Shown here: positions 3,605 through 36,057 of the stretch, piece by piece
Position numbering within the stretch: position 1 is the stretch's first letter
Layout of the letters: each line of letters starts with the position of its first letter
Assembly (NCBI GenBank): GCA_021735645.1
Contig: JAIPGP010000019.1
Coordinates: forward strand, 1 to 46,464
From: Candidatus Cloacimonadota bacterium
GTDB lineage: Bacteria > Cloacimonadota > Cloacimonadia > Cloacimonadales > TCS61
Reading direction: 5' to 3'
Length of the DNA stretch: 46,464 nt
Program-made: the position numbers and the translations under genes
The notes under the pieces: generated by a model
Told to the model about the DNA's origin: nothing
The model's database searches: none
Seen by the model: only the letters and a program-made list of their open reading frames with translations

Positions 3605-4993
3605 ATGAGCAGGGAACAATTCATTGAAGAATTATTTAAAATTGGAGCAGTGAAATTTGGTACATTCACGTTAAAGAGTGGTAAAGTGTCACCATTTTAC
3701 TTTGATCTGCGAGATATGATATCATATCCGGAATTATTAGACGGGATCGTGGAATTATTAGTAGAGAAACTGCAGGGCATCGAATTTGATGTGATCACAG
3801 GGATACCTTATACAGCATTACCAATTGCCTCTCTTGTAGCCGACCGGTTGCAGAAACCTTTGATCTATATGCGCAAAGAAGAGAAAGCTTATGGAACAGG
3901 GAATAATGTGATTGGCAAATTTACTCCGGGAGCAGTGTGTATTGTGATAGATGATCTGATCACAACTGGTGAGAGCAAGATAGAAACGGCAGAAAGACTG
4001 GAAGCGGAAGGCGTGGTCGTGAAAGACTTTGTGGTTGTGATAGACCGCAGTAATGACGGCAGTGGCATCCTGGCAAAATCCGGTTATATACTTCATAGTC
4101 TGATAGCTCTGGATGAAATACTGGCAATTTTGCAGAAAGGAAAATATATTGATAATAAGATGGCAGACCAGGTGAAGGAATTCACTCAGGCACTGGCAGA
4201 AGAGAGCACACAGGAAGTCGAAAATCTGAATCCCTTAACTATAAAATTAAAAGAGACAATGCAAAGGAAGCAGAGCAATTTGATATTATCACTGGATGTA
4301 ACCAGTCAGTCAGAATTTTTCAGAATATTAGATAAAACGGCAGCAGAGATAGTGATGCTGAAAACGCATGTAGATATCCTGGATGATTATGATGAGCATT
4401 TTACGGGAAAACTGCAGGAATATGCCAGACGCTATGACTTTCATATATTTGAAGACCGTAAATTTGCTGATATCGGCAATACAGTACGGATGCAGTATCG
4501 GAAAGGAATATATAGAATCTCGGAGTGGTCAGAATTTATCACTGTACATCTGGTGGCTGGAGCCGGCATTCTTTCCGGGTTATTTGAGGGATTAACGGGC
4601 AGGAGCAGTTTTCTGCTGGCACGGATGTCCTCTAAAGGCAATTTGATAAATGAGTCTTACACAAGAAAGGTGATAGAAGCCGGCAGAAAGAATCCGGGAG
4701 TAGTATCAGGATTTATCGGACATGGCAAAGATCAGGAAGATATTCGCCGGTTTAAGGCGAAATTCCCTGCCGGAATGCTGCTGCTGATGCCTGGTGTTAA
4801 GCTGGAAAGTGGGACAGACAAGCTGGGACAGCAGTACATTACCATAGAAGATGCAATAGGTGGCGGAGCAGATTGCATAATAGTGGGCAGAGGCATAATC
4901 CAGTCTGAGAATCCGGGTATAACGGCTAAGATATATCGTGAGCGAGCCTGGAAAGCATATAATCAATTGAATAATAGAAAGGCGGGGAAATGA
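3605..4993 (+). CDS. pyrEF: Bifunctional UMP synthase: orotate phosphoribosyltransferase-OMP decarboxylase fusion
   Basis: Converts orotate plus PRPP to OMP and then to UMP. Residues 1-about 205 are the OPRT domain (KFGTFTLKSGKVSPFYFDLR near 17-36; PRPP loop VIDDLITTGES 114-124). Residues about 215-462 are OMP decarboxylase (LSLDV 229-233, LKTHVDIL 252-259, catalytic FEDRKFADIGNTV with Asp284, Lys286 and Asp289, phosphate-binding IIVGRGII near the end). The domain order and the exact FEDRKFADIGNTV wording match eukaryotic UMPS. Typical bacterial PyrF proteins read DxKFHDIPNTV. The start ATG 3605 has GGAGAG just upstream; the stop overlaps the pyrB ATG (ATGA). Confidence 0.94.
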   Translation: MSREQFIEELFKIGAVKFGTFTLKSGKVSPFYFDLRDMISYPELLDGIVELLVEKLQGIEFDVITGIPYTALPIASLVADRLQKPLIYMRKEEKAYGTGNNVIGKFTPGAVCIVIDDLITTGESKIETAERLEAEGVVVKDFVVVIDRSNDGSGILAKSGYILHSLIALDEILAILQKGKYIDNKMADQVKEFTQALAEESTQEVENLNPLTIKLKETMQRKQSNLILSLDVTSQSEFFRILDKTAAEIVMLKTHVDILDDYDEHFTGKLQEYARRYDFHIFEDRKFADIGNTVRMQYRKGIYRISEWSEFITVHLVAGAGILSGLFEGLTGRSSFLLARMSSKGNLINESYTRKVIEAGRKNPGVVSGFIGHGKDQEDIRRFKAKFPAGMLLLMPGVKLESGTDKLGQQYITIEDAIGGGADCIIVGRGIIQSENPGITAKIYRERAWKAYNQLNNRKAGK

Positions 4994-12801: not shown

Positions 12802-14553
12802 ATGGAAATCAAAGACAAAATCAAAGATCTGGACTGGTTAAGGGAAGAACTTATCGGCAGAAACAAGCTGATACCTACTCCGTATGGAGAAAAACCCCTG
12901 GTATATCTTGATTATACAGCCAGTGGTAGAAATCTGCATTTTATTGAGAAACATCTGAATAATATCAGACAGTATTATGCAAATACACATACTGAAGATG
13001 ATTATACCGGTAAAACCATGACCTCATTACTGCATGAAGCCGAGAAAAGGATAAAAAAGGCAGTCAATGCCGGCAAGCATGGCAAGATCATTTTCACGGA
13101 ATATGGAACAACAGGTGGTATTACACGCCTGCAACAGATTCTGGGAGTGTATTTATCACCGGCAACACGTGAAAGATACAATTATTTCCTGGAAAGCTGT
13201 CTATCCCGCCGGGGTGTAGAGCAATCTTCCTGTCATGATGCTTTACTGCATTATATAGACCATCACAAGCCAATAGTGTTTGTGAGTCCGTATGAGCACC
13301 ATTCGAACGAGATCATGTGGCGACGGACATTATGTGACGTTCGGGAAGTGACCCTGGGAAATGACGGTTCTATTGACCTGGAAACGCTGGAGGAAATTGT
13401 CTCTGATCCCATCTACCTTGATAGACCCAAGATCGGCTCTTTTTCTGCCGGCTCAAATGTGACCGGTTTATTATCTGATACTTATGCAATTGCCCGCATA
13501 CTGCACAAGCATAATTGCCTTGCCTGTTTTGATTTTGCAGCCTGCGGTCCATATATAAAAATTGACATGAATTATAATGAAGAGAGTTTTTATGATGCTA
13601 TCTTTTTTAGTCCTCATAAATTTCTGGGAGGACCTGGTTCCAGTGGAGTTTTGATATTTAATGAAAGGATTTACCGTAAAGACCTGCCTCCCAGTATTGC
13701 AGCAGGAGGTACAGTGGATTATGTATCCAAGACTCAGGAGCTTTTTGTGGAGGATATAGAGACCCGGGAGAAGCCTGGAACTCCGGGAATTATGCAGGCA
13801 CTAAGAGTATCACTGGTGATGGGTTTAAAAGAAAAAGTAGGATTGAAAAATATAGAAACAATAGAACGGTATTTTACCCGCAGATTTTATGAAGAATTGA
13901 GCGAAGTAGAAAACCTGGTCTTTTTAGGAGAAACAGACCCCTGTAAAAAAGTTGCTATTATCCCCTTTAATATCAAATACAAAGATACGGATATGGTAAT
14001 TCACCCCAAGTTTGCCACTAAACTGTTGAATGATCTTTTTGGTATTCAAACCAGGGCTGGCTGCTCTTGTGCGGGACCTTACGGGCATCTGATCATGCAC
14101 ATAGAGAAAGAATTATCAGAGAAATATATGAAAGTGATTAAGAATAAACATCTGGCAGGCTTAAAACCGGGCTGGATAAGGCTGAATATGCACTATATAC
14201 TTTCTGAAGAGGAGTTTGATTATACAGTAGCTGCCATAAAATTCATCTGTAAAAATGCCTGTAAATTCTTGAGCCAGTACAAATTCAATATTTACACGGG
14301 TGAATGGACACATTTAAGTGAAACAGAGTTTAAGCAGTTAGTTGACCTTGATATAGATAACGCCATAGAAAGTGAAGAGATAAGTAAAAATCCGATAAAG
14401 TCTTTTAAAGATATTTATCAGGAGAATCTGCGAGCAGCAAGGATATTAGCGGATTCTTTACCGGCAAGTGATGACCATGTGTTTGATCAGGATTTCAAAG
14501 ATCTTGTTTACTTCCCGGTAGTTAATATTATTAAAAACCCCAATAGCATATAA
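12802..14553 (+). CDS. Class V aminotransferase-fold PLP enzyme (cysteine desulfurase-like), role unknown
   Basis: A 583-residue PLP protein of the NifS/SufS fold. Visible features are YEHHSNE (164-170), SAGSNVTG (215-222), the PLP-pyridine Asp in FDFAACGP (Asp244), and the Schiff-base lysine in SPHKFLGGPGSSG (Lys273). RAGCSCAGPYGH (418-429) has cysteines at 421 and 423 where SufS has its catalytic cysteine. An extra C-terminal part of about 120 residues follows. It has AGGAGA in front of its ATG and lies between purQ and purH with gaps of 8 and 11 bases, so it is co-transcribed with purine genes. Cysteine desulfurase or selenocysteine lyase chemistry is possible, but no purine-pathway role is known to me. 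Confidence 0.75.
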   Translation: MEIKDKIKDLDWLREELIGRNKLIPTPYGEKPLVYLDYTASGRNLHFIEKHLNNIRQYYANTHTEDDYTGKTMTSLLHEAEKRIKKAVNAGKHGKIIFTEYGTTGGITRLQQILGVYLSPATRERYNYFLESCLSRRGVEQSSCHDALLHYIDHHKPIVFVSPYEHHSNEIMWRRTLCDVREVTLGNDGSIDLETLEEIVSDPIYLDRPKIGSFSAGSNVTGLLSDTYAIARILHKHNCLACFDFAACGPYIKIDMNYNEESFYDAIFFSPHKFLGGPGSSGVLIFNERIYRKDLPPSIAAGGTVDYVSKTQELFVEDIETREKPGTPGIMQALRVSLVMGLKEKVGLKNIETIERYFTRRFYEELSEVENLVFLGETDPCKKVAIIPFNIKYKDTDMVIHPKFATKLLNDLFGIQTRAGCSCAGPYGHLIMHIEKELSEKYMKVIKNKHLAGLKPGWIRLNMHYILSEEEFDYTVAAIKFICKNACKFLSQYKFNIYTGEWTHLSETEFKQLVDLDIDNAIESEEISKNPIKSFKDIYQENLRAARILADSLPASDDHVFDQDFKDLVYFPVVNIIKNPNSI

Positions 14554-21642: not shown

Positions 21643-23394
21643 ATGTTTGCAGTGATGGTAGATCATAAATTACGAGAACATCGGAGTAAAATAGAATACA
21701 GTATAGCATATCTATTTTCGGTGTTAGGTTACAGTTATCGGATATTAGCTGATGACGAATATGCGAGTGTGGAAGATATACCATTTATGTATGTGTCCAA
21801 TAAGAAGATAGTCGAGGAATATTTATCAGAACATCCGCGAGGATTTGCTATATGCGTTCTGCATGATGCGATACATTACAATTATGATAATCTTGGTAAG
21901 GGGGATATCAAGCAATTATTGAAGAGTTTTAATATTGGTTATGAGATACCTTATATATGCAGCAGGGATATAGTGGAACCGATATCATTCACATGTGATG
22001 CAAAGAAGCAGAGATTTTATGTGGGAGTATTTCACTTTGATCTGATAGGTAATATTTATTTTCATTTAACGGGTAAGGAGCAGGATACTATCAAGCATCG
22101 GGACGCTCAGAAGCGTTTCAGTTATCAGCAGTCGAATTTTGAGAAGTATATGAACTATCCATATTTAACCGGCATGATAAATCTGGTAGAGTTATTTTTG
22201 AGTGAAGGTGAGAGTTATTTGAGGTATCCCCTGTTGAAGAAGCCGTTATGGCCAGGTAATAAGCAGTATGCAATAGCGATAACGCATAGTGTGGATAAAT
22301 TAACCAAATGGAATGGTATGCGATTTTGGGAGAGCTTATTTTACTGGTTGCGGAGTTTTTGGCGGGTACAGTATCATCTCCGAAATTTTTGGGGTTTACT
22401 GCGCTATTTATTTGATAACTGGGAGCCGTACTGGAATTTTGATTTAATAGCAGGTCTAGAGAAGGATAATGGGATACAGAGCACATTTTTCTTTGGTGTG
22501 GGCGACGAGAAGCAGGCAGGAGTGGATTATGAATTAGCGGAACCAGACCTGAAAACTCAAAAGAATGAACTGGAATCATTTGGTCATGGGTTTGGTTTAT
22601 ATTTGAGTCGAGAAAGTAAGGAAGCTGCGTATCAGAAGTCTACTAAGGAGTTATCTGCATTTACAGGAACCACAATAAATGGGGCCCGAAAAGAGAATTT
22701 TATTTTACCGGAAGCGAAGGAGACGGCATTATATCAGAGTAACGGTTTGAAGTGGGACAGTTCGTGGGCAATGCCGGATTTGCAGGGATATATCCATGGC
22801 ATAGGCTATCCTTTTTATCTGAGTTTGAATGGATATAAGGAAGGTGGTATATTGGAGATACCGGTGAATTTCAGTGATCATGCCCTGCGAAGTGATAAAG
22901 CAGCGATCAGTATGGATGCTTTGGAGGAGCGGATCGAAGACATCATAGATAAAGCGCGGAAATTCCGGTCATTATTAGTATTTAATTTCAATGTATGCAC
23001 TTTTGAGGAGATATTGCTTCTTTCGGAAGTATTTCGCTGGCTGATGCAGCGTTTAAAGGGTGACCCATCGGTATGGAAAGCCCGTTTATCAGAGATTTAC
23101 AGCTGGCACGAACAGCGAGAGAGCATAAAAATAGGAAATGAGCGTGATCTTGTAGTGATAGAAGCCCGTAGGGATATAGATGATATAACTTTATATATAA
23201 AGGGATTATGGCGTGTTAATGATATAGTGGAGCGTCATATTCAGGAAAAGGAGCAGGAGGAATTAGACTTATTTACTGAAAACACCTGGTGGCAGATGAA
23301 AGATGCTGAGGTCATGGTAACAGGCAGAATGGTGAGACTGCGCAATGTGAAATCCGGTTGCAGGATCCGGTTAGAAACCGTGAAATTTGGTTAG
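21643..23394 (+). CDS. Polysaccharide deacetylase-like protein with degraded active site
   Basis: A 583-residue protein resembling the two-part proteins with an N-terminal DUF7033-like region and a C-terminal NodB-type deacetylase fold. The N-terminal part has IYFHLTGKEQDTIKHRDAQK (138-157), matching the FLxxRYEE...RD block of that family. The deacetylase motif 1, normally THDVD, reads THSVD (214-218). The motif usually reading HxxGLHxS appears as GHGFGLYLS, with Tyr320 in place of a metal-site His. It may therefore bind rather than hydrolyse glycans. It opens the glycan cluster, with an AAGGAG site before ATG 21643. The family call is moderate; loss of activity is inference. Confidence 0.65.
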   Translation: MFAVMVDHKLREHRSKIEYSIAYLFSVLGYSYRILADDEYASVEDIPFMYVSNKKIVEEYLSEHPRGFAICVLHDAIHYNYDNLGKGDIKQLLKSFNIGYEIPYICSRDIVEPISFTCDAKKQRFYVGVFHFDLIGNIYFHLTGKEQDTIKHRDAQKRFSYQQSNFEKYMNYPYLTGMINLVELFLSEGESYLRYPLLKKPLWPGNKQYAIAITHSVDKLTKWNGMRFWESLFYWLRSFWRVQYHLRNFWGLLRYLFDNWEPYWNFDLIAGLEKDNGIQSTFFFGVGDEKQAGVDYELAEPDLKTQKNELESFGHGFGLYLSRESKEAAYQKSTKELSAFTGTTINGARKENFILPEAKETALYQSNGLKWDSSWAMPDLQGYIHGIGYPFYLSLNGYKEGGILEIPVNFSDHALRSDKAAISMDALEERIEDIIDKARKFRSLLVFNFNVCTFEEILLLSEVFRWLMQRLKGDPSVWKARLSEIYSWHEQRESIKIGNERDLVVIEARRDIDDITLYIKGLWRVNDIVERHIQEKEQEELDLFTENTWWQMKDAEVMVTGRMVRLRNVKSGCRIRLETVKFG

Positions 23395-23410
23395 GAAGCA
23401 AAAAAACATA

Positions 23411-24697
23411 ATGCCCAAAGCTTTAATAATATCCTATTTTTTTCCACCCTTAAGTGGACCGGGAGTTCAGCGGTCGTATAATATTGTGCGTAATCTTGCC
23501 GAAAACGGCTGGGAACCGGTAGTATTGACAGTTAAAGACATCTGTTATGTGGGCAGAGATGAGACGCTGATCAAGAAGCTGGCAGGGATAGAGATAATAA
23601 GAACAGAGACGATAGACCCGATGCGAATTTTGTATTTATGGGAAAAGATATGGGGCAGGAGCAGGGATAAAAGTATTTATGTGCAGGCTGGAAGTGGAAT
23701 ACGGCAATTTGGCAGGGACATATTTCCTCTAGACTCCAAAATTGGCTGGCTGGCAACAGCATTCAGGCGAGCATGTAACATCTGCAGGACGCATGATATC
23801 AAGGTGATCTATGCCACAATGAGTCCTTATTCAAGTGGAATACTGGCAAATAAAGTGAGCAAAGCAATGAATATACCATATATCCTGGATTATCGTGATT
23901 TATGGTCTGGCAAGCCGGACCTGAGTTATTTCAGCAGGTGGCACCGGAAGCTTTCCGAGAAATGGGAGCAGCGGATCATTGAGGCAGCAGCAGCGATCAT
24001 TCAGGTAACTGAGTGGTCAAGAACACGTTTTCTGGAGCTGTTTCCGGAATGTAATAAAGAGAAAGTGTCGGTGATCTTTAATGGATATGATCGGGAATCA
24101 ATCCCGGTGAAGATACCGCATGTAAGCAGTAAGGGAGTGATAAGATTCACATATGCAGGGCATTTTTATGGTGAGCGGAATCCCGGGGAGTTTTTAGGGG
24201 CTTTAGCGGAGTTAATAGCAGAAAACAGTTTAGATGAGTCAGTGGAATTTGAGTTTATTGGCAATTATCCGCGTGAGATAGAAGAGCTTTTTTTTGAGCA
24301 TAAATGTCTTAAACGCGTGAAATATATGAATTATGATGAGTATCTGGAGAAATTAATTGACAGCAGCGTCCTTCTATTATTCATTTCAAGTCGCAATAGT
24401 GAGATGGTATTAACCCAGAAGCTGTTTGAATATCTGGCAGTGAGGCGACCGATATTTGCGATGATACCGGAAGTTGGAGAAGCAGCAGAGATCATCAGGA
24501 AGTATAATGCGGGAATAATAATTACTGGAGCAGATCGGGCAGGAATAAAAAGAGGAATATTGGAGATGTGTGAAATAGTCCGGCAGGGAGAAGTGAATGC
24601 GAGATTTCAGGTATCAGAAAATGATTATAGTAAATTTGAGCGTCAAGCGCAGGCAAAGCAATTGGCAAAGCTGATGGATACTGTGACAAATGGCTAG
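23411..24697 (+). CDS. GT4-family glycosyltransferase
   Basis: The 428-residue cytoplasmic protein starts KALIISYFFPPLSGPGVQR, the N-terminal nucleotide-fold opening typical of GT4 (GT-B) transferases. Its C-terminal half has FTYAGHFYGERNP and the sugar-nucleotide region ending EYLAVRRPIFAMIPEVGE. The donor and acceptor sugars cannot be read from sequence. I use ATG 23411; the longer frame begins with TTG inside the preceding gene. AGGA at 23392 is somewhat distant (15 bases). It overlaps the next glycosyltransferase by 8 bases, so the two are probably translated together. Confidence 0.85.
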   Translation: MPKALIISYFFPPLSGPGVQRSYNIVRNLAENGWEPVVLTVKDICYVGRDETLIKKLAGIEIIRTETIDPMRILYLWEKIWGRSRDKSIYVQAGSGIRQFGRDIFPLDSKIGWLATAFRRACNICRTHDIKVIYATMSPYSSGILANKVSKAMNIPYILDYRDLWSGKPDLSYFSRWHRKLSEKWEQRIIEAAAAIIQVTEWSRTRFLELFPECNKEKVSVIFNGYDRESIPVKIPHVSSKGVIRFTYAGHFYGERNPGEFLGALAELIAENSLDESVEFEFIGNYPREIEELFFEHKCLKRVKYMNYDEYLEKLIDSSVLLLFISSRNSEMVLTQKLFEYLAVRRPIFAMIPEVGEAAEIIRKYNAGIIITGADRAGIKRGILEMCEIVRQGEVNARFQVSENDYSKFERQAQAKQLAKLMDTVTNG

Positions 24698-25811
24698 GAA
24701 AAAGCTGCTTCATATCCAATTGCTGCCGCTGCTTTCCGGTGTGCAGAATATGATGTTGAGCCTGCTGGGTGGTTTGGATAAAGCTGAATTTGAGATCTAT
24801 GTAATCAGCAAGCCGGGTGGCCCTTTGGAAGAAGCAATAATAAAAGCTGGATATCATTATGTGCCGGTGAAATCGCTGGAGCGTAATTTTTCGATATTTG
24901 ATCTTATAGCTATCGTGAAACTCTACATCATAATGAGGAAATGCAAATTTGATATAGTGCATACCCATTCCAGTAAGACCGGATTTATGGGGAGAATAGC
25001 AGCCAGATTAGCAGGAGTGCCACGAATATTCCACACAGTGCATGGCTTTGCAATTCATGAGCATCAGTCGGGGATATTAAACCGGATATATATGACACTG
25101 GAGAAATTTGCCGGCAGGTTTTGTGATAAAGTGATATTTGTGAATGATCATGAGCGTGAGATGGCAGTGGCAAAAGGTATATTACCAGCCGAGAAAGTGA
25201 TGACGATCAATAATGGAATTGCTATTGAATTATATAAGGTGAAGGATGCTGAGAGCTATCTTGCTGAGCGGGATTATGAAAAGAATCCTTTTATAATAGG
25301 CAGTGTACTGAGATTCACAACCCAGAAAAATGTATTTAACACAATTGCGGCTGCTATAGAAGTATGCAAAAAAAATAGAGCAATACAATTTGTATTTATT
25401 GGAGATGGTGAGGATTTTCTGGTTTGTAAGAATCTGATAGATCAGGCAAATATGAATACACGGATTTTTTTAACCGGCTGGCAATCGCGGATAAATGAGC
25501 TATTGATGAAGCTGGATGTGTTTCTATTATTTTCTCGCTGGGAAGGCTTATCGATATCGATATTAGAAGCGATGGCTACGGGATTGCCAGTGGTGGCATC
25601 TGATATCAAAGGCAATAATGAATTAGTAGATAAAGAAAATGGAATACTGGTGGATGTGCGGGATATTGATGGATTGGTGGCGGAATTAGTGAGTCTGCCT
25701 CAGCGCACTTCAGAATTAAAATCCTGGAGTATTGCCTCACGCAGGCGGATGGAAGAAAGATTCACGCTTCAGAAATTTATTAATGAATATAAGGCACTAT
25801 ATGATGATTAG
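24690..25811 (+). CDS. GT4-family glycosyltransferase
   Basis: The 373-residue protein has the acceptor-side motif HTHSSKTGFMGRIAARLAGVP followed by IFHTVHGFA, a signature of GT4 enzymes acting on lipid-linked or surface glycans. The donor-site motif is SRWEGLSISILEAMATGLPVVAS, with the EX7E glutamates (Glu in RWEGL and in ILEA). It is a separate subfamily from the preceding gene. Substrate is unknown. Its end overlaps the WecA-like gene by 11 bases. Confidence 0.88.
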   Translation: MARKKLLHIQLLPLLSGVQNMMLSLLGGLDKAEFEIYVISKPGGPLEEAIIKAGYHYVPVKSLERNFSIFDLIAIVKLYIIMRKCKFDIVHTHSSKTGFMGRIAARLAGVPRIFHTVHGFAIHEHQSGILNRIYMTLEKFAGRFCDKVIFVNDHEREMAVAKGILPAEKVMTINNGIAIELYKVKDAESYLAERDYEKNPFIIGSVLRFTTQKNVFNTIAAAIEVCKKNRAIQFVFIGDGEDFLVCKNLIDQANMNTRIFLTGWQSRINELLMKLDVFLLFSRWEGLSISILEAMATGLPVVASDIKGNNELVDKENGILVDVRDIDGLVAELVSLPQRTSELKSWSIASRRRMEERFTLQKFINEYKALYDD

Positions 25812-26838
25812 CATTTATGTAATGAGTTTTATCATACCATTGATTTTAACTATCGGACTGGTGCCGGTGAATATTCGCCTTTCCAACAAGCTGGGGATGA
25901 TTGACCAGCCTGATGAACGTCGGATTCATAAGAAACCAATTGCTTTAGCTGGTGGATTATCTTTTGCTATTCCGATAGTGTTAATGGAATTGAGTCTGGC
26001 AATAATTATGCCGGAATATCGTAACCGGTTGTTAGAGATGGCAATCGGTGGTTCTTTGATTGGATTATTAGGCTATCTGGATGACAAGCGGGGATTTACT
26101 GCCAGGTATAAGCTGGTTTTTCAGATATTATTAGTGAGTGTGATGTATATTGCCGGTTATCGAATGAATTTACTGACGAATCCTTTTGGCAGCGAGATAC
26201 GTCTGGGAATATTTTCATTTCCTTTTACGGTGTTATGGTATCTGGCAGTGATCAATGCCTTTAACCTGATAGATGGACTGGATGGATTAGCCGCTGGGAT
26301 AGCAGCAATAGTGTCAGGTGTTATACTCACAGTGGGGATAATCAATCATGATCCCTTTGTAAGTTTACTTTCGCTAATTTTAATGGCTGGCTGTTTAGGA
26401 TTTTTAAATTATAATTTTTATCCTGCTCGGATATTTATGGGAGATACTGGAGCATTGTTTCTGGGATTTAATATAGCTTCAATCTGTATATCAGGCGTAG
26501 GTCAGTTCAAAGGCATCACAACGATGACTTTACTCATACCGATAGCAACACTGGCTCTACCACTGATAGAGACTTTTAATACAATATTTCGCAGAATGAA
26601 AGATAATCAGCATATCTTTAAAGCAGATAAAGAACATATACATCATAAACTGCTGGAGCTGGGATATTCCCAAAAAACGATAGCTCTGGCACTTTATTTC
26701 ATTACCTTTTTATTTGGTTTAATCGCCATAGGATTTTCTTTTTCCAATAAGCGGTTATTTCTATTAATATTGATAGTTATGGTATTTATTTTATTTATCC
26801 TGATCAATCTTTTATACAGCAAGGAATTTAAAAAATGA
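25801..26838 (+). CDS. WecA/TagO-type undecaprenyl-phosphate sugar-1-phosphate transferase
   Basis: A polytopic inner-membrane protein of 345 residues that loads the first sugar phosphate (GlcNAc-1-P in WecA) onto undecaprenyl phosphate. The MraY/WecA-family motifs are all present: GYLDDKRGF, NAFNLIDGLDGLAAG, the catalytic-loop FMGDTGALFLGF, and HIHHKLLELGYS. HIHH points to WecA/TagO rather than MraY. About ten hydrophobic segments are visible. ATG 25801 (or 25804) is preferred over the longer frame from 25732, which would run inside the upstream transferase. It is the likely initiating enzyme for the glycan made by this cluster. Confidence 0.9.
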   Translation: MMISIYVMSFIIPLILTIGLVPVNIRLSNKLGMIDQPDERRIHKKPIALAGGLSFAIPIVLMELSLAIIMPEYRNRLLEMAIGGSLIGLLGYLDDKRGFTARYKLVFQILLVSVMYIAGYRMNLLTNPFGSEIRLGIFSFPFTVLWYLAVINAFNLIDGLDGLAAGIAAIVSGVILTVGIINHDPFVSLLSLILMAGCLGFLNYNFYPARIFMGDTGALFLGFNIASICISGVGQFKGITTMTLLIPIATLALPLIETFNTIFRRMKDNQHIFKADKEHIHHKLLELGYSQKTIALALYFITFLFGLIAIGFSFSNKRLFLLILIVMVFILFILINLLYSKEFKK

Positions 26839-29273
26839 AGAAAACATTCATGATTTTACTGCTGGTAACCATTGTGTATGGTTACAGCGAGACAATTTTG
26901 CGTAACTGGAAAAGTTACACTAATACTACCCATATCTCTGATTTGCAAGTAGATGGCAATGTGATACTTCTGGCAACCTGGGGCGGATTACTGGAATATG
27001 ATGCTGAGAGAGGTTCCTTTGCAGGTCCGATTAAAATGGAAGATGGGCTTAGCTCCAATGAATTAAGTGCTCTGGAACTGCTGTCAGACGGAACATTACT
27101 GGTGGGTACAAAAACTGCTGGTATCAGCCGGATACAGAGTGGGGAATTTAAGATGCCACTCAATGAAGATAACGGTTTATCATCCGCAAAGATATATGCC
27201 ATTGAGTCTTATGGTGAAAAGTATGTGGCAATAACTGATGACGGGATCAGTGTATTCAGCCAATTACCAGTCTGGCCCCTGCCAGCGGTGAATAACTATG
27301 ATCAGAGTGACGGTTTGAGTTCTACAAATTACAATGCCATTGCGATAAGCAATGAGGGAATTTTATATTGTGGTTCGGAGAATGGAATTGATTATGCTGA
27401 TTTGAATGATGAAGAGCTGGAATGGCAGCAGCTAAATACGGCAAATTCGGACCTGGGTAATAATTATATTACCAGTATATCCTGCCGGGACGGCAAAGTG
27501 GCAGTAGGGACAAAATCCGGGATATATTACCTTGAAAATACACCAGCAGGTAGAGAAATTGAGAAGTACGGACTCGATGTGTCCTATTACCCAGTATATT
27601 TGGATGGATCAGGCAATATCTGGGCCAGCCGGGGATATTGGGATGAAGATGAATTGCAGGTGCTGGAAAGTGAAGATCAGATGCTTGTGATGTTTGAGAT
27701 TGGAGGTGGGCAGTCGATAATTGGTATGGATGTATTAGGAAGTGTAACCAGCATGGTGACTTCAATTAAAGAATTTCAGGGGGGATTAGTAATATCTACC
27801 TGGGGTGGAGGAATATTGATCTACGACGGGACCTGGTGGAGTGAACCGTTGATGCAGAACTGTATAGGAGCAAATTTCACAACTGCTTTGCAAATGGATA
27901 CCCGGAACCGGTTATGGGTGGGAAATGGTATACTAAATCCCCCGGATACGCGAAGGGGAAACCGCGGATTATCGCATTGGGACGGTTATGAATGGGTGAC
28001 TTTTAATTCAGAGAATTCGGGACTTACCAGCAATAATATTAATTCTATTGTTCCTTTGGCTAATGATCACTTCTGGTTTACATCTTATGCAAATATAAAT
28101 TCTTCTCTGGCAGGGATAAATGTTCTTGATTATAGTGATACAGATAATCCGGAGTGGGATTTTTATCACTCTCTGCATACAATAGATCCATTACCTTCTT
28201 CAAGTATAGGTAATTCATTTCTGGGCAAAGATGGCAATATCTGGTTATGCATGTATAATGGTGGAATAGGGCTGTATAATGAAGCAACAGAAAACCAGCA
28301 TTTTTTTATGGGACCTGATGTGATGTATAATGGGCGATCGAATGCTATTTATGTTTATCAGGGAGATAGTTATACCGTTGTAGGCGGCTGGTTGTCAGGT
28401 TTTGAGTTGTGGACAGGCGAAGGTCTGCCAGAGACTGATGACAGTGCCAACTGGGAGCAGCCAGCGGATCAGGATTTCACTAATGGTCATGTATATGCTG
28501 CCATTGAGCGTCATCAGTTCTATCATGATGAGATATGGATAGCTTCATCTAAGGCACTTTATATGTATGATGGAGATGATTGGTTTCGTTATGGTAAAGA
28601 GAGTACGAAGCGTCAATATCTAGCAGGTACAGGCACAACCTCGAACTGGCAGCCCCAGACTTTGGACATAGGAGTAAATGATTCACCGGACTGGTGGTAT
28701 TTTGAGGGACAGGAGAGGCTTTATGGCGGTGTGAGCACATATCCCACCGCATTACTGGTTGACCCATTTAATAATTTATGGATTGGCACAGCAACAAATG
28801 GTATCTGTCGCTATGATATCGAAAATAACAAGTTTAAAACCTGGAACATGGAGAACAGTCCGCTTATGTCTAACCAGATTAATGATCTGGAATATGACGG
28901 AGAAACGGGCACAATGTATATAGCTACAGCCAATGGTTTGAATTCAGTGATGATAGGTATCAGTGGAATCGATAATCAGGAAGATGAATTAAACAGCATG
29001 CTGGTGTATCCGAATCCATTTTATCCTGAGCAGGACGGGTTGGTGAAGATAGAAAACAAAGATCATCTTACTATGCCTAAGGGTGGGACAATTTGTAATA
29101 TTTATGATCTGGAAGGCTTACTGGTGCGTGAACTGGAATTGAATAATTTTCAGCAGTTTGAATGGAACGGGAATAATTCTGCTGAGAAAAAATGCTCATC
29201 CGGATTGTATTTTTATCTGGTAACCAGTGCGGAAGGCGAGAGCAACCGCGGGAAGATCATCCTGGTCAGGTAA
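26835..29273 (+). CDS. Secreted beta-propeller protein with C-terminal sorting-like domain
   Basis: The 812-residue protein starts with a signal peptide (residues 1-18). Repeated two-component-regulator-type propeller blades follow: DGLSSNELSALELLSDGTLLVGT, DGLSSTNYNAIAISNEG, SGLTSNNINSIVPL and NNLWIGTATNGICRYD. Two propellers are likely. The last 90 residues begin VYPNPFYPEQDG and end SGLYFYLVTS...GKIILVR, a FlgD-like/type IX secretion sorting-type Ig domain. This layout recalls PorZ, the propeller protein of A-LPS attachment in Porphyromonas, but homology is not shown. Its place between glycosyltransferases, overlapping the WecA gene by four bases, ties it to the surface glycan. Confidence 0.75.
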   Translation: MKKTFMILLLVTIVYGYSETILRNWKSYTNTTHISDLQVDGNVILLATWGGLLEYDAERGSFAGPIKMEDGLSSNELSALELLSDGTLLVGTKTAGISRIQSGEFKMPLNEDNGLSSAKIYAIESYGEKYVAITDDGISVFSQLPVWPLPAVNNYDQSDGLSSTNYNAIAISNEGILYCGSENGIDYADLNDEELEWQQLNTANSDLGNNYITSISCRDGKVAVGTKSGIYYLENTPAGREIEKYGLDVSYYPVYLDGSGNIWASRGYWDEDELQVLESEDQMLVMFEIGGGQSIIGMDVLGSVTSMVTSIKEFQGGLVISTWGGGILIYDGTWWSEPLMQNCIGANFTTALQMDTRNRLWVGNGILNPPDTRRGNRGLSHWDGYEWVTFNSENSGLTSNNINSIVPLANDHFWFTSYANINSSLAGINVLDYSDTDNPEWDFYHSLHTIDPLPSSSIGNSFLGKDGNIWLCMYNGGIGLYNEATENQHFFMGPDVMYNGRSNAIYVYQGDSYTVVGGWLSGFELWTGEGLPETDDSANWEQPADQDFTNGHVYAAIERHQFYHDEIWIASSKALYMYDGDDWFRYGKESTKRQYLAGTGTTSNWQPQTLDIGVNDSPDWWYFEGQERLYGGVSTYPTALLVDPFNNLWIGTATNGICRYDIENNKFKTWNMENSPLMSNQINDLEYDGETGTMYIATANGLNSVMIGISGIDNQEDELNSMLVYPNPFYPEQDGLVKIENKDHLTMPKGGTICNIYDLEGLLVRELELNNFQQFEWNGNNSAEKKCSSGLYFYLVTSAEGESNRGKIILVR

Positions 29274-30272
29274 ATGAAGCGATTATTGTTTATAAGTGCT
29301 TATAGCGCACCTTTTATAGAGGGAGATAAGGCATTTCTGAGAAAGGAATATCAAGTGGAATTGAGTACTGGCAACAGGTTTTCAAAAACTGTCTGGAATT
29401 ATCTGCTGATATTTATAATTACAGGCTGGCAGGTACTGCATAATGATATAGTTTACTGCTGGTTTGCTGATTTCCGGGCAAGAGCAGGTGTTTTTTGGGC
29501 GAGAATATTTCGCCGGAAATCGATTGTGGTAATTGGCGGATATGAAGTGAAAGATATTGTCTATGATGAAGGCAGGAAAGCCGGGCATTTCCAATACATT
29601 CTGAGTCAGGCAAATTTACTGCTGACTGTTTCTGATCATTATCAGAAGTGTCTGCAGGAGAGTTTTCCAGAATATGCCGGTAAACTGAAAATGGTCTATA
29701 ATGGTATAGAAATTACAGATCAGAACAAAGCAGTGATAAAAAAAGAAAAGCTTGTTATAACAGTATGCAGTGGAAAAACTGTCAGTCGATTTGAGGGAAA
29801 GGGCATTGATATTTTCCTGGCAGCAGCAGAAAGATTACCGGATTTTCAGTTTGCCATTATTGGTGCTGAAGGTGAGCTAAAAAAAGCAATATTAGCAAAG
29901 CAGACTTCAAATAATATCCAGATAGTGCCACCAGTGCAGCAGGCTGAATTGAGCCAGTGGTATCGTAAAGCAAAGGTATATTGCCAGTTTTCACGGCATG
30001 AATCTTTCGGACTTGCACTTGTGGAGGCAATGTCGTGGCAGTGCGTGCCGGTTGTGAATAACATAGCAAGTTTGCAGGAACGGACAGGTGGCAGCGGATT
30101 TGTAGTGGAAGATGGCAATCTGCAGCAGGCTGGAAAATTTATAGAGCATGCCATGAATGAGAGTGAAGAAACCGGTAGAAAGATTGCAGAGAGAGCAATA
30201 AGTCTCTATGACATTAGAAATAGAGAAATAGCTGTTTTAACAATATTACGGGATGCGTGGAATAATGAATAA
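29274..30272 (+). CDS. GT4-family glycosyltransferase
   Basis: At 332 residues this is a short GT-B transferase. VYNGIEI marks the domain boundary. The donor site is SRHESFGLALVEAMSWQCVPVV, with both EX7E glutamates, and it ends with an SGFVVEDG loop. The N-terminal domain is reduced and contains a hydrophobic stretch near residues 42-55, possibly for membrane association. It starts directly after the propeller gene's stop and overlaps the next gene by eight bases. Confidence 0.85.
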   Translation: MKRLLFISAYSAPFIEGDKAFLRKEYQVELSTGNRFSKTVWNYLLIFIITGWQVLHNDIVYCWFADFRARAGVFWARIFRRKSIVVIGGYEVKDIVYDEGRKAGHFQYILSQANLLLTVSDHYQKCLQESFPEYAGKLKMVYNGIEITDQNKAVIKKEKLVITVCSGKTVSRFEGKGIDIFLAAAERLPDFQFAIIGAEGELKKAILAKQTSNNIQIVPPVQQAELSQWYRKAKVYCQFSRHESFGLALVEAMSWQCVPVVNNIASLQERTGGSGFVVEDGNLQQAGKFIEHAMNESEETGRKIAERAISLYDIRNREIAVLTILRDAWNNE

Positions 30273-31653
30273 AATTGGAATATTAGGCGCTTCAGCAGTC
30301 TGGGAGAATGTATTATGCCAGTTAGGGATACCCTGCCGGGTTTTCAAAAACCAGGATGAACTGAGATTAAGTGCCCGTATTGATGCTCTAATACTTTCCA
30401 GTGAATATTGTGTAAACGATATAGCAGGATTACAGGCAATACTTGGTGAAAAGGCTATTTTTATTATAATCCCGGCAGGCAGCAGGAAGGGAAAGCAGTT
30501 AAACTCTTCTGAAAGTGTAGTCTGGAAAGAGGAAGAGTATAGATTTGAAGTAGAAATAGAACTATTTGAGAGCGAAAGAAAATGCCGGGCAAACATAGTG
30601 CATTTTCCTATAAAGCTGGATGACATTCCTAATGATATAGTGCACAGGCGCCAGTTTTATGCAAGCAGGCAGGAATTGCCCTCAGAACGGATTAATGCGT
30701 TAGCTCAATTTGAGATACTGCGTTTTGTCAGAAATTTTCTTATAGCAGCATTTCGGGCAGGTAATAGGGAGTTATGGGGCTATGCCGGTTTACCGGAAAA
30801 CAAGCCGTTGTTTATTTTCAGAATAGACACAGATTTTGCTGAAGAGGCAGAGATAAGAAAATTAGCGGAACTTTGCAGCCAATACAGCATATCAGCAACC
30901 TGGTTTGTTGATGTTCATTCCGAGCAGATATTACAGTATTATGAAACATTCGATGATCAGGAAATAGCATTACATTGTGACCGGCATTATGTGTATGAAG
31001 ATAAATTGAGGAATTATGATAACCTTGCATCAGGTTATAGCAGGCTGTTTAATCATAAGATATGTCCTTCCGGTTTTGCGGCACCATTTGGAGACTGGAA
31101 TCGCTCATTGGAAGAAGCAATATTTGAGCTTGATTTCAGTTATTCCTCCGAATTCGCTTATGCCTGGGATACTTTGCCAATTATCAGAAAGCAGAAGGGT
31201 AAAACACTTTTGCAAATACCCATTCATCCAATAAGCCCCGGCAGGTTACGCAGGTCACATTTTTCCAGTAAAGAGATGCTGGATTATTTTATAGCGCGAA
31301 TTGAGCATAATATCCGTTTAGGGATACCGGCGATTATCTATCATCATCCAGCCCATGGGTTGCTGGATTTGATAGAAGAATTGTTAAAGTATGTCAGGGA
31401 AAACAATATTAATAATCTTTCCATGCACAGTTACGCTTCCTGGTGGCTGAAAAGGTATGAAGCTCTGAGTCAGTCAAATATTTCCGAATTGATAGAGCCG
31501 ATCAGGCTGGAGGAGCAAAGTATTGATCTCCCCAAAGATTATTTAAGAATTTATAAAAAAAACTGGCGCTGGTATTTGTATGAATATGAATCATTCAGGA
31601 GCAGACGGTATTTCCAGGAGCATGGTTACCCGGCAAAGGTAATATCGAGGTAA
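30265..31653 (+). CDS. Polysaccharide deacetylase-like (NodB-fold) protein
   Basis: The 462-residue protein has an N-terminal region of unknown type (about 1-175) and a NodB-like barrel. The metal-site motifs are FRIDTDF, IALHCDRHYVYED and GFAAPFGDWN, and YHHPAHGL lies near the end. Unlike the first deacetylase-like protein of this cluster, the Asp and His pairs are retained, so hydrolytic removal of acetyl groups from the glycan is plausible. I use ATG 30265, which overlaps the preceding stop like its neighbours. An ATG at 30253 adds only four residues. Confidence 0.7.
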   Translation: MNKIGILGASAVWENVLCQLGIPCRVFKNQDELRLSARIDALILSSEYCVNDIAGLQAILGEKAIFIIIPAGSRKGKQLNSSESVVWKEEEYRFEVEIELFESERKCRANIVHFPIKLDDIPNDIVHRRQFYASRQELPSERINALAQFEILRFVRNFLIAAFRAGNRELWGYAGLPENKPLFIFRIDTDFAEEAEIRKLAELCSQYSISATWFVDVHSEQILQYYETFDDQEIALHCDRHYVYEDKLRNYDNLASGYSRLFNHKICPSGFAAPFGDWNRSLEEAIFELDFSYSSEFAYAWDTLPIIRKQKGKTLLQIPIHPISPGRLRRSHFSSKEMLDYFIARIEHNIRLGIPAIIYHHPAHGLLDLIEELLKYVRENNINNLSMHSYASWWLKRYEALSQSNISELIEPIRLEEQSIDLPKDYLRIYKKNWRWYLYEYESFRSRRYFQEHGYPAKVISR

Positions 31654-31656: not shown

Positions 31657-32691
31657 TTGAGCATTTATTTATATAGTTATCCATCGCTGTACATTAATCC
31701 CGGTGGACCCACTTATAAGACAGCAATGATATATGAGCATCTCCGGCAATTAGGGATGGACGTGAAATTTTTTGATATGTGGGATAGTAGTCTGCAGCTC
31801 ACAGAAGATGATGTCTTCTATATTTTCACAGCAAATATTTCCACTTATCCCTTAACATCTAATCTGGTTCAGAAAGGCATTCGCTATCTAGTAAATCCGA
31901 TATTTTACAGCAATCATCAGGCTGGCAGGATCAGGATGTATCGCCAGCTGGAAAAACCTTTTAAAAAGCTATTTAAACGCAGCATATCTGATTATGATAT
32001 CACAGAAAGCATTTGCCGTAATGCGGAAAAGATATTACCAAATACCGAGGCAGAGAGAAATCTTTTAGTAAGTGCTTTTGATCTGGATAAAGATAAGTTT
32101 GAAGTGATTCATAATGGAGTTGAAAAGAGATTTGCTCAGGCTGATCCGGGATTATTTCAAAAGAAGTATGGGCTTAAGGATTTTGTGTTGTATAGCGGAC
32201 ATTTGGGACCGATTAGAAAAAATGGACTGAAGATAATAAAAGCGATGCAGAAAGTGAATGCTCCCTGCGTGATAATAGGTGACACTTTAAAGAATGCCGA
32301 AGGTGAAAGATGTCTGGCAGAAATTGAAAGAAGTGGTAATATTACGTATTTAGGCTGGATAGACCATTCTGATCCGCTGTTGGAATCTGCTTATGCAGCC
32401 TGCTACAGCTTTATATTGCCCACACGTTATGAAACACCGGGCAGAGCAGCATTAGAAGCCGGATTAGCTGGAGCAAATATTGTGATTACTCCTAAAGGCG
32501 GGACCCGAGAATACTTTGCGGAGTTGGCTTTGTATCCTGATCCTTTAGATGTGAGTGATGTAGTGCAATCTATAGAAAAATCTTTAAATACACCTCATAA
32601 TACCAAACTTAAAGAGCGAATACTGCAAAAATATATCTGGGAAGTGATTGCTTTACGAACCCAGAACCTGATTGAGGATTTACAAAAGTGA
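31657..32691 (+). CDS. GT4-family glycosyltransferase, TTG start
   Basis: The 344-residue protein has VIHNGVEKRF at the inter-domain linker and a donor site reading LPTRYETPGRAALEAGLAGANIVIT, a GT4 pattern with EX7E glutamates. The start is TTG 31657 with GAGGT upstream. No ATG lies near the expected N-terminus (SIYLYSYPSLYINPGGPTYK). The opening PGGPTYK matches the glycine-rich acceptor loop of GT4 enzymes. A four-base overlap couples it to the radical SAM gene. Confidence 0.82.
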   Translation: MSIYLYSYPSLYINPGGPTYKTAMIYEHLRQLGMDVKFFDMWDSSLQLTEDDVFYIFTANISTYPLTSNLVQKGIRYLVNPIFYSNHQAGRIRMYRQLEKPFKKLFKRSISDYDITESICRNAEKILPNTEAERNLLVSAFDLDKDKFEVIHNGVEKRFAQADPGLFQKKYGLKDFVLYSGHLGPIRKNGLKIIKAMQKVNAPCVIIGDTLKNAEGERCLAEIERSGNITYLGWIDHSDPLLESAYAACYSFILPTRYETPGRAALEAGLAGANIVITPKGGTREYFAELALYPDPLDVSDVVQSIEKSLNTPHNTKLKERILQKYIWEVIALRTQNLIEDLQK

Positions 32692-33557
32692 CCATATTCA
32701 CCAGAATCAGCAAAATACACCAACGCTGGCAGAAGCATAAGATTACCAGGAAAAATTTGTCCGCACCAGTCTGGGGATATCTATTTGCCATCTTGAAGTT
32801 AGAAGTTATTCGCAAAGTGAAACTGAAGCTGCAATATAGAAGGATCGGGTTGATTTCTACTAATATTGAAACAATATCAATGTGCAACCGGAAGTGTGAA
32901 TTTTGTTTTAATCATCCCCGTTTTGAGTCCAGAGAGCAGGGTGAGATGTCTGCAGAGACCTGGAAGAGTATCATGGATCAACTGGCAGGTTTGAAGTTTT
33001 GCGGTCGAATAGGGCCACATTTTTATAATGAACCGCTGCTTGATAAACGGCTGCCGGATCTGATCAATTATACCCGGCAGGTGATGCCATACTGCTGGAT
33101 CCAGATAAATTCCAATGGTGATTATCTGAATGAAGAATTATTACTGAAGCTTTATAATAAAGGTGTTAACTATTTTTTTATCACGAATTATGATGAAGAC
33201 GATAAGGCGGATTTTAACCTGCTGGCAGCAAAGTATCCCGCTTTGATCAGCGTAGTGAAAAACAGTGATATGTGGAGAACAGACCGGGGAGGCGAAATAT
33301 TCCATAAAGAAAAGCTTTTATCTTCTTCCTGCAGACGTCCAGCCACTCAATTAGTGGTAAACTGGCGGGGAGAGGTTCTGCTATGTTGCATGGATTATTA
33401 TGCTAAATATTCTTTTGGTAACCTGAATAATATGAAATTATTCACCATCTGGAATAATGATGAATTTCTGAAGATCAGAGAAAAGCTGAAATTGTCTCGA
33501 CAAAATGGTTATTCTATCTGTCAAAATTGTGATGATCCGGGTGCTATTCCCTGGTAA
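32688..33557 (+). CDS. Radical SAM protein with SPASM-like C-terminus
   Basis: The 289-residue protein carries the radical SAM 4Fe-4S motif CNRKCEFC (Cys66, Cys70, Cys73). Near the C-terminus there are extra cysteines: SSSCRRP, VLLCCMDY and ICQNCDDP. Their spacing is that of a SPASM/twitch domain holding auxiliary clusters. The NxNG-type strand (QINSNGDYL) is present. The start is GTG 32688 overlapping the previous stop. Such enzymes modify peptides or small molecules. In this cluster a sugar- or lipid-modifying role is possible, but nothing in the sequence names the substrate. Confidence 0.8.
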   Translation: MTIFTRISKIHQRWQKHKITRKNLSAPVWGYLFAILKLEVIRKVKLKLQYRRIGLISTNIETISMCNRKCEFCFNHPRFESREQGEMSAETWKSIMDQLAGLKFCGRIGPHFYNEPLLDKRLPDLINYTRQVMPYCWIQINSNGDYLNEELLLKLYNKGVNYFFITNYDEDDKADFNLLAAKYPALISVVKNSDMWRTDRGGEIFHKEKLLSSSCRRPATQLVVNWRGEVLLCCMDYYAKYSFGNLNNMKLFTIWNNDEFLKIREKLKLSRQNGYSICQNCDDPGAIPW

Positions 33558-33562: not shown

Positions 33563-35038
33563 ATGAAAATATTTAAAATCCCGCTCATCAACCGCTTGCT
33601 GAATTATTCCTGGGGCACTTTTTTAAATAAGTTCCTGATATTTTTGCTATTACCGCTGCTCAGCCGAGTATTACAGCCGGAAGAATATGCCGTTTATTCC
33701 ATTCTGCTGCTCTTTGCTGCCCTGGTCTCGCATTTCTTTCAAATGGGTTTACATCAATCGCTAATGACTTTATACTATAAACAGCCGGATAATGGAGCTA
33801 AACTTACTCTGATATCTACTACCTGGATAGCGGTAGGGATAAACAGCGTGTTGCTAACTGCCTTAATACTATTTTTACGGCAGCCACTTGGAGCATTGTT
33901 GATCAATAGCAATCAGGATTTCAGTTTGCTGGTCAGTTTAACGGCATTAATGGTATTTCTGGATGTGTTTTACAGCTTGACACTGGTCTTATTAAATATA
34001 AGACAGCAATCAAAAGAGTATTCGATCTTGAATTTAACTAAAAATCTGGTCACGATCGCCGGAGTATTTCTGCTGAGTTTCTGCCATTACCTGGATATTA
34101 AGACATTCTTTTTTGTGATTGTTACTGCCAGTTTAGTTTCACTGCTGCATTCTTTATTTTATTTTAAAAGCATCTGGAGAGAATTAACTAATAACAATCT
34201 GCCTTACAGCCGTTTTTCATTCCCGCTGTTCAAAACAATTCTGAGATTTGGAATATTCATGGTTCCGGCAACATTTGCGGTAATATCGTTGCAAAGTGCA
34301 GACCGTTATATGCTGAATCTCTTATCAGAGCGAACTTTATATGATGCTGGCATATATGCAATTGCCTATAAGATCGGCATGATCATGTCATTATTTACAG
34401 TTGTCTTTGATCTGCTGTTTTTTCCTTATATTATGCAGGAAAATAATATGCAGCTTGCCAAAAACAGATTAAGAATGCTATTTTCTTTTTATGCTTTTTC
34501 CGGGACTTTGATTGCTGTATTGATTATCCTGTTTTCGCGTGAGATTTTTCTGGTACTGGACAGTTCATATAATGAAGGCGCTTCGCTGGTATTCTTTGGG
34601 GTCATATCCATGTTTCTGCGTGGGATGTCAAATATTCTGGTCTTGGGATTTTATCTTATAAAGCGATCAGAAGCAATTGCTCTGGCATCAGCATTAGCTG
34701 CATTATTGAATATTTTATTGAACTGGTTATGGATACCACATTATGGAATACTAGGGGCGGGATTTGCTTCGATAATCGCCTATTTATTCATAGTTATCTT
34801 TAATTATGTGAGTGTTGAACGAGTATTTAAAGCCGGATACAAAGCTGGCTGGATAGCTGCGTCACTTCTAATCATGATCATTGTTTCATTTTTAAATTAC
34901 AGTTTTACTACTGTAAACTGGCAGATGTTTGCGATAAAATTGGCTTTAAGTGCATTCTTAGGACTGCTTGGCTATCTATATATAACTAAAAGAGGTTATG
35001 TGAATTATTTAATTGGCAGAGTAAAGGATAAATTATGA
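33563..35038 (+). CDS. Wzx-type oligosaccharide flippase
   Basis: A 491-residue integral membrane protein of the MOP/PST superfamily with about 12-14 hydrophobic helices. It opens with NYSWGTFLNKFLIFLLLPLL and LLSRVLQPEEYAVYS, the start typical of polysaccharide flippases. SADRYMLNLL in the middle is the conserved helix-7 region. It moves undecaprenyl-linked repeat units across the inner membrane, completing the pathway started by the WecA-like enzyme. No Wzy polymerase or O-antigen ligase was recognised in the window. Confidence 0.87.
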   Translation: MKIFKIPLINRLLNYSWGTFLNKFLIFLLLPLLSRVLQPEEYAVYSILLLFAALVSHFFQMGLHQSLMTLYYKQPDNGAKLTLISTTWIAVGINSVLLTALILFLRQPLGALLINSNQDFSLLVSLTALMVFLDVFYSLTLVLLNIRQQSKEYSILNLTKNLVTIAGVFLLSFCHYLDIKTFFFVIVTASLVSLLHSLFYFKSIWRELTNNNLPYSRFSFPLFKTILRFGIFMVPATFAVISLQSADRYMLNLLSERTLYDAGIYAIAYKIGMIMSLFTVVFDLLFFPYIMQENNMQLAKNRLRMLFSFYAFSGTLIAVLIILFSREIFLVLDSSYNEGASLVFFGVISMFLRGMSNILVLGFYLIKRSEAIALASALAALLNILLNWLWIPHYGILGAGFASIIAYLFIVIFNYVSVERVFKAGYKAGWIAASLLIMIIVSFLNYSFTTVNWQMFAIKLALSAFLGLLGYLYITKRGYVNYLIGRVKDKL

Positions 35039-36057
35039 GATATTCACTTGGTTCTTTCCAGACAGAATTGCTGGAAACTGAGCTGAACGAGCTTATTCGG
35101 TTTCTGCCGGATAATTCATACTGGGTAATAGATAAAAAGCTTACTGAGCTTTCAACTGTTTTCAATTCTCAGGTGCCGGAGGCATTCCTGGTGAATGCTA
35201 CGGAAGAGAATAAAAATCTGAATACTGCTGCCGAAATGTTTTACTGGCTGCAGAAAAGTGGAGCAAATAGAGGTTCTACTATAATAGCTGCCGGTGGAGG
35301 TATCACTACGGATATTGCTGGCTGGGTGAGCAGCAATTATATGCGGGGTTGCCATCTGATCAATATTCCCACTACAATTATTGGCATGATAGATGCCTCT
35401 TTAGGTGGTAAGACAGGCATTAATTTTAATCAGGCAAAAAATATAATTGGCAGTTTCTATCCTGCTGAAAAAGTAATATTGAGCTATGAGTTGCTGGATA
35501 CTCTTTCAGAAAAGGAAATCAGGTCAGGTATGGCGGAGTTGCTAAAAATGGCACTGCTGCCAGGTGATCAAATTCTGCAAAAACTGATCAACTTAGAAAG
35601 GAACTGGCTGCTTGAGCGAGAATTTCTGATCAGAAGTGCCGGGGAAAAGAAATTAAATATCTGCCGGAACGATCTGCATGATCAAGGTGAGCGAAGAATC
35701 TTGAATCTGGGTCACACCTTTGCCCATGTAATAGAATCAGCATCTGATTTTAGAATTGAGCATGGTAGAGCAGTGGCAATCGGGCTGTATAAGGCGGCTG
35801 AGTTAAGTTATCAACTGAAATTGATAAGCAGCAAAAGGAAATCTTTTATCTGCAAGTTACTAAAGTTACATTTCCCGGTATCTTATCTGCAGATAGATGA
35901 AAATACCAGGACAAAGATTGAGAATACTGGAGAAAAATTCTATCAGCAGGATAAAAAGTCACGACTTGTACTCTATTCTGGTGAAAATGAAATAGTAATA
36001 ATTAATCAGGTAAAATGGAATAAATTCAAAAACATTTTATTAGAAGATATTGCCTGA
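35035..36057 (+). CDS. aroB: 3-dehydroquinate synthase
   Basis: The 340-residue enzyme converts DAHP to 3-dehydroquinate, using NAD+ and a divalent metal, in the shikimate pathway. It shows the NAD site GGGITTDIAGWV (87-98), PTTIIGMIDASLGGKTGINF (112-131), the zinc-ligand candidates Glu168 (MAELLK), His227 (LGHTFAH) and His243 (EHGRAV). No other aromatic-pathway gene is nearby. It overlaps the flippase by four bases. Sugar-phosphate cyclases for cyclitols share this fold, so a role in glycan precursor chemistry cannot be excluded, but the motifs match AroB. Confidence 0.85.
   Translation: MRYSLGSFQTELLETELNELIRFLPDNSYWVIDKKLTELSTVFNSQVPEAFLVNATEENKNLNTAAEMFYWLQKSGANRGSTIIAAGGGITTDIAGWVSSNYMRGCHLINIPTTIIGMIDASLGGKTGINFNQAKNIIGSFYPAEKVILSYELLDTLSEKEIRSGMAELLKMALLPGDQILQKLINLERNWLLEREFLIRSAGEKKLNICRNDLHDQGERRILNLGHTFAHVIESASDFRIEHGRAVAIGLYKAAELSYQLKLISSKRKSFICKLLKLHFPVSYLQIDENTRTKIENTGEKFYQQDKKSRLVLYSGENEIVIINQVKWNKFKNILLEDIA

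Follow-up and report, generated by a model that had tools for sequence, protein, structure and literature searches.

PMC8545088 describes PorZ of Porphyromonas gingivalis as binding anionic lipopolysaccharide (A-LPS) and then binding PorU more strongly, and proposes a handover for transpeptidation onto cargo of the type IX secretion system (T9SS). According to the same paper, Tannerella PorZ does not bind the A-LPS of P. gingivalis, so PorZ is matched to its own species' glycan. PMC7468200 states that the linking sugar of P. gingivalis requires Wbp and Vim enzymes and that WbaP starts A-LPS in the pathway of P. gingivalis and T. forsythia. This anchoring arm of the T9SS is known from a few Bacteroidota, in which the glycan genes are scattered. 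A T9SS has been named as possible in Cloacimonadota (PMC11285876), and a literature search, mostly of open papers, found no report of PorZ in this phylum or of a link between porZ and wecA or wbaP genes. We describe here a PorZ-like protein encoded on a 46,464-nt contig of a Cloacimonadota genome (JAIPGP010000019.1, assembly GCA_021735645.1; the whole stretch is referred to as the window). Its gene, porZ, directly follows a gene for a glycan-initiating transferase in nearly all evaluable genomes of the phylum, and we consider it somewhat probable, from the sequence data presented below, that the protein serves the glycan made by the adjacent genes and presents it to PorU so that cargo can be anchored. 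The source genome (3.77 Mb in 151 contigs, 95% complete) probably belongs to Candidatus Stygibacter, a genus of the Fibrobacteres–Chlorobi–Bacteroidetes (FCB) group; the closest named relative of the PorZ-like protein is found in Ca. Stygibacter frigidus (82% identity over residues 605–812), and a genome of the same genus (G088) shows 81% identity over residues 604–812.

The initial annotation had recognised the layout of PorZ in this open reading frame (a signal peptide, probably two propellers and a C-terminal sorting-type domain), and the comparison of folds bears this out. A structure model built from 23 aligned sequences (pLDDT 84.4, pTM 0.85) has a helix at residues 2–17, strands in propeller-like repeats and a strand-rich C-terminal domain. 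Foldseek ranked PorZ of P. gingivalis (PDB 5m11) first (E 3.5e-27, TM 0.64/0.69), followed by hybrid sensors of the BT4663 type with TM values of about 0.3. In VIA-align, 5m11 gave a Z of 28.9 and a root-mean-square deviation (RMSD) of 5.6 Å over 682 residues, and was the sole row among the best 50 to span residues 23–812, whereas the sensors reached Z values up to 29.5 with RMSDs of 18–20 Å and ended near residue 708. As the Z values lie within 1 of each other, we relied on RMSD and coverage. Profile alignment (hhalign) with nine Bacteroidota PorZ sequences returned a probability of 100 (E 7.8e-51, 713 columns), and the top PDB match by sequence was again 5m11. On the basis of the predicted structure and these profiles, the frame is assigned as a full-length PorZ homologue, with the two seven-bladed propellers and the sorting-type domain in the same arrangement as in P. 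gingivalis, although identity to that protein is just 18–19%. The propellers contain Reg_prop repeats above the Pfam cut-off (E 9.7e-13). The C-terminal domain barely passes the cut-off of 23 bits of the NCBIfam model for T9SS type A sorting domains (TIGR04183), and PF18962, PF13585 and PF13860 all remained below their Pfam cut-offs. Carrying such a domain, the protein would be exported by the T9SS with the domain retained. A pair of cysteines in this domain (Cys754 and Cys787) occurs in 64 of 107 Cloacimonadota rows and in none of 54 rows from Bacteroidota and other phyla (genome G082 being counted twice, here and in the 151-row tree below), and is possibly a disulfide peculiar to the Cloacimonadota lineage.

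Homologs matching at E 1e-10 were detected in 117 of 124 Cloacimonadota genomes, and in 69 of the 70 that are at least 90% complete with no more than 5% contamination, so the frame is more than a chance reading. The match was single in 105 of the 117 genomes, and in most of the other 12 it was split across contigs or stretches. Ca. Syntrophosphaera thermopropionivorans strain W5 (L109) is among the bacteria with the gene. A FastTree reconstruction of 151 near full-length rows placed all 100 Cloacimonadota rows in one clade (0.996) and 39 Bacteroidota rows, together with a Bacteroidetes record (L182), in another (0.997). Given these separate clades, the Cloacimonadota PorZ seems to have an old history of its own and not to have been transferred recently. 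Matches to the family over almost the whole profile were also found in genomes of Neomarinimicrobiota, KSB1 and Calditrichota, and at E 1e-30 in 129 of 198 sampled Bacteroidota genomes.

In the window, the start codon of porZ and the stop codon of a WecA-type gene overlap (ATGA), and the glycosyltransferase gene that follows starts, with ATG, on the base right after the porZ stop. The setting noted in the initial annotation, between a WecA-type enzyme and glycosyltransferases, was confirmed by Pfam matches (Table 1), with glycosyltransferases on both sides. This is no local accident. Neighbourhoods were read in 106 genomes besides the window, 4 of which had too little flank; in the other 102, a WecA-type gene lay directly upstream of porZ on the same strand in 87, a WbaP-type gene in 11 and neither in 4. 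With the window included, a glycan-initiating transferase is directly upstream in 99 of 103 genomes (WecA 88, WbaP/WcaJ-type 11). Ten of the 117 matched genomes (G012, G048, G055, G057, G066, G080, G088, G094, G095 and G106) were left out because the match was weak, fragmentary or at a contig end. Of the four exceptions, three (L281, L289 and L317, all of one genus) have wecA convergent just downstream of porZ, so that a glycan-starting transferase adjoins porZ, before or after it, in 102 of 103 genomes; the fourth (L072) has none within its 20 kb. In the same three genomes the frame immediately before porZ is SprA (PF14349), which ties PorZ to the translocon directly at the gene level.

The hidden Markov model (HMM) with which the 11 WbaP-type genes were counted had been derived from these very genes, and all 11 were individually confirmed by Pfam as PF02397; two of the loci (L064 and L045) carry the same gene. 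We take PF02397 to be unrelated to PF00953 and to catalyse the same step, the start of a glycan on polyprenyl phosphate. At L064 the gene order around this slot is otherwise as in the window. Six genera, all in the family to which the window belongs, account for the WbaP cases. On a 33-row PorZ tree, nine changes between WecA and WbaP are required, a count taken from a quick tree with eight open branches and three rows less than half filled.

Outside the phylum the picture differs. Forty Bacteroidota loci were hand-picked from the 129 matched genomes, spread down the ranking and with long contigs favoured, and in the 38 that could be evaluated no WecA- or WbaP-type gene was found next to porZ by our transferase HMMs, both of which were built from Cloacimonadota and hence favour that phylum. 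The HMMs were not blind in Bacteroidota, as they matched somewhere in 5 of the 40 stretches. A chance neighbourhood was accordingly dropped as an explanation (99/103 against 0/38). Bacteroidota neighbours were otherwise mixed, the commonest being RecO downstream (11/40) and lumazine synthase upstream (7/40); the latter also precedes porZ in 9 of 14 loci of other phyla (one member each of these two neighbours was confirmed by Pfam). The other-phyla set comprised 17 matched genomes, 14 of which were read and 13 evaluable, the Bacteroidetes record included. A single case of linkage appeared among the 13: in a Latescibacterota genome (L194, 5226–12749), a frame joining a glycosyltransferase to a WcaJ-type transferase lies directly upstream of the PorZ-like gene, with PseB-like and PseC-like enzymes downstream, which hints that the linkage extends beyond one phylum.

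The genome was also searched for the partners of PorZ. A PorU-like protein is encoded on contig C48, and its alignment with PorU (6za2) has the GHG and Cys stretches, presumably the catalytic residues, in place. The PorV family was above its cut-off at four places (best 242 bits), SprA/Sov reached 449 bits with neighbours included in the frame (cut-off 200), and the genome has at least 150 type A sorting domains, counted with 150 of 246 candidates scored. Neither an absence of T9SS genes nor a fold unlike PorZ, the two results that would have spoken against the first proposal, was thus seen when looked for. The porU gene on C48 (L331, 8362–16052) lies near lpxD, lpxC-fabZ and lpxA, which are divergent and separated from it by one short open reading frame; each of the three exceeds a curated cut-off, and the genome can therefore make lipid A. 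Contig C150 (L333, 4719–10839) carries another PorU-like frame, 1693 aa long, with a PorV-like gene immediately behind it, and this pair matches the PorU (263 bits), PorU2 and PorV2 models, all below their cut-offs.

These data suggest the following mechanism. The adjacent cluster would build a glycan on a polyprenyl carrier, started by WecA or WbaP, extended by glycosyltransferases of the GT4 type and flipped by Wzx, and the finished glycan would end on a lipid of the outer membrane. Exported by the T9SS via its own sorting domain, PorZ would bind this glycan and present it to the PorU sortase, which would cleave the sorting domain of the cargo and attach the glycan to the C terminus so exposed. 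Placing porZ beside the initiating enzyme may keep the carrier matched to its glycan. A porZ gene that keeps its place beside the glycan starter even where one type of starter has replaced the other is consistent with a PorZ serving this glycan. Cloacimonadota are thus likely to hold secreted proteins at the cell surface via a glycan. As for the glycan-linked anchoring of cargo proposed in the initial annotation, the gene link on which it was built holds across the phylum, and the delivery of the glycan to cargo is a step that we infer.

Several observations weigh against this mechanism. The best stretch of the PorU-like protein scores 384 bits, below the cut-off of 420, and the PorZ-like protein reaches 137.4 bits (E 6.1e-40) with the NCBI equivalog model for PorZ (NF052228, T9SS_PorZ), short of the cut-off of 260, which was passed by 4 of 28 genomes reached via the other-phyla loci and by 125 of the 198 sampled Bacteroidota. 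It was therefore filed as a variant PorZ homologue and not as that equivalog. Models for GldM and GldN found no match in the genome, although the controls were equally silent. Nor was there a match to TIGR03019, a FemAB-like family with which VimA has been compared (VimA itself was not the query); the linker chemistry may differ here, or VimA may be too distant for this model. The most widely kept deacetylase-fold neighbour of porZ lacks the usual His-x3-His motif. Bacteroidota, with their known glycan delivery, show no such linkage, so the function does not require it. Finally, all of the evidence for glycan anchoring comes from sequence.

An alternative is that the protein is a PorZ homologue needed for PorU display and the removal of sorting domains, with the glycan genes as mere neighbours in an envelope operon and the cargo released or held by other means than a glycan. 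We regard this as rather unlikely, yet it agrees with the missing TIGR03019 match and with the working of porZ in Bacteroidota without glycan-gene neighbours, and overlapping genes can stay together for co-expression alone. Plain co-expression does not, however, predict that the starter is swapped about nine times for an unrelated enzyme that does the same job and is still found directly upstream. Recurrence is also far higher upstream of porZ than downstream: in 20 distant loci, some of them cut by contig ends, wecA was found in 18, the next GT4 gene in 18, the deacetylase-fold protein in 15 and the other GT4 gene in 12, but the gene downstream of porZ in only 4. An improbable alternative is that the protein binds or organises the surface polysaccharide or exopolysaccharide made by the cluster, being exported by the T9SS with no role in cargo sorting. 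Propeller proteins often bind sugars (BT4663, PMC5121618), and the GT4 enzyme encoded next upstream of wecA is closest, below the cut-off, to an XrtA/PEP-CTERM exopolysaccharide family (TIGR03088). Against this stand the PorZ fold and a profile match over the full length, the single match in 105 of 117 genomes, in step with a T9SS, and the position of porZ after SprA in three genomes. Identity as a sugar sensor with propellers, of the type seen in hybrid two-component systems, and an added sorting domain was dropped as very improbable indeed, for while the Reg_prop repeats, the second-ranked PDB sequence match (3v9f), the tied VIA-align Z, and the two seven-bladed propellers with a beta-rich C-terminal domain in BT4663-type sensors would all suit it, no kinase or Y_Y_Y domain was among the Pfam matches and the poor, shorter superposition reflects a different domain arrangement.

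With a PorZ that serves the adjacent glycan as the preferred reading, the cluster itself can be considered (Table 1). It runs from a deacetylase-fold protein through two GT4 enzymes, WecA and PorZ to a further GT4 enzyme, a deacetylase-like protein, another GT4 enzyme, a radical SAM protein, Wzx and an AroB-like protein. The start of the WecA-type gene was chosen by eye at ATG codons 25801/25804, the longest frame beginning at 25732. The first protein also matches DUF7033 weakly (22 bits, cut-off 27); it was tried as an equivalent of VimE and is not called so, as it has a deacetylase fold but no His-x3-His. The second deacetylase-like protein retains D-T-D and His-x3-His in 11 of 11 rows and was present in merely 6 of the 20 distant loci; the AroB-like gene was found in 8 of them.

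Table 1. Features of the porZ region and of the encoded PorZ-like protein (nucleotide positions within the window)
Feature	Position	Strand	Evidence
Protein with polysaccharide-deacetylase-like fold, without the usual His-x3-His	21643..23394	+	Foldseek best 3rxz, E 2.4e-9 (model pLDDT 78.5)
GT4-type glycosyltransferase	23387..24697	+	Pfam
GT4 glycosyltransferase, next upstream of wecA	24690..25811	+	Pfam; best NCBIfam TIGR03088, 168 bits (cut-off 409)
WecA-type polyprenyl-phosphate sugar-1-phosphate transferase	25801..26838	+	PF00953, 134 bits; TIGR02380, 132.5 bits (cut-off 326)
PorZ-like protein, 812 aa	26835..29273	+	Open reading frame placed exactly; fold, profile-profile, tree
Signal peptide of PorZ-like protein	about residues 1–18		Judged by eye and model helix
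Two beta-propellers of PorZ-like protein	about residues 23–708		
C-terminal sorting-type beta-sandwich domain of PorZ-like protein	28998..29270; about residues 722–812	+	TIGR04183, 23.6 bits
GT4-type glycosyltransferase, directly after porZ	29274..30272	+	Pfam
Polysaccharide-deacetylase-like protein with D-T-D and His-x3-His	30253..31653	+	PF22537 (WbmS-like), 23.7 bits (cut-off 27)
GT4-type glycosyltransferase	31657..32691	+	Pfam
Radical SAM/SPASM protein, just before flippase	32688..33557	+	Pfam; 3/20 distant loci
Wzx-type polysaccharide flippase	33563..35038	+	PF01943, 67.9 bits
AroB-like cyclase at cluster end, membership unsure	35035..36057	+	PF01761; TIGR01357, 258 bits (cut-off 305); TIGR04425, 226 bits (cut-off 400)

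Compared with known systems, the locus shares glycosyltransferases, a starter transferase and a deacetylase-like protein with the A-LPS Wbp/Vim pathway (PMC7468200), from which it differs in giving no TIGR03019 match and in the WecA type of starter found in most genomes. In exosortase XrtA/PEP-CTERM clusters, too, a sorting system lies by glycosyltransferases and a deacetylase (PMC7468200), whereas here the sortase is PorU-like and encoded far from the glycan cluster. Upstream of the cluster, the window carries an extended series of genes for the synthesis of pyrimidines and purines (600–21212), some of them joined, such as an OMP (orotidine 5'-monophosphate) decarboxylase fused to a phosphoribosyltransferase domain (3605–4993); in the middle of this series, 12802–14553 is aminotransferase-like by eye. 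A promoter scan gave 52 sites against 52.4 in shuffled sequences, which is no excess, and 16 terminator-like sites against 10.1 (standard deviation 3.9); neither was used.

WecA- and WbaP-type starters probably add different kinds of first sugar. A tentative reading for the whole phylum is that cargo is anchored to glycans genetically locked to PorZ, the sugar at the reducing end having been repeatedly exchanged (WecA versus WbaP) with the anchor undisturbed, in which case PorZ and PorU would read the far end of the chain. If this reading is true, the glycan that anchors cargo in uncultured phyla would be traceable in their genomes through the clusters linked to PorZ. If the link between porZ and the starter holds throughout the phylum, the genes for the anchor glycan can be read straight from the genomes of these anaerobes, and the generality of T9SS glycan anchoring outside the Bacteroidota becomes testable. 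A cellulosome-like scaffold has been proposed for Stygibacter by others and is said to attach by a C-terminal domain (PMC8542988). Glycan anchoring would explain how Ca. Stygibacter could hold many secreted proteins at its surface, including this proposed scaffold.

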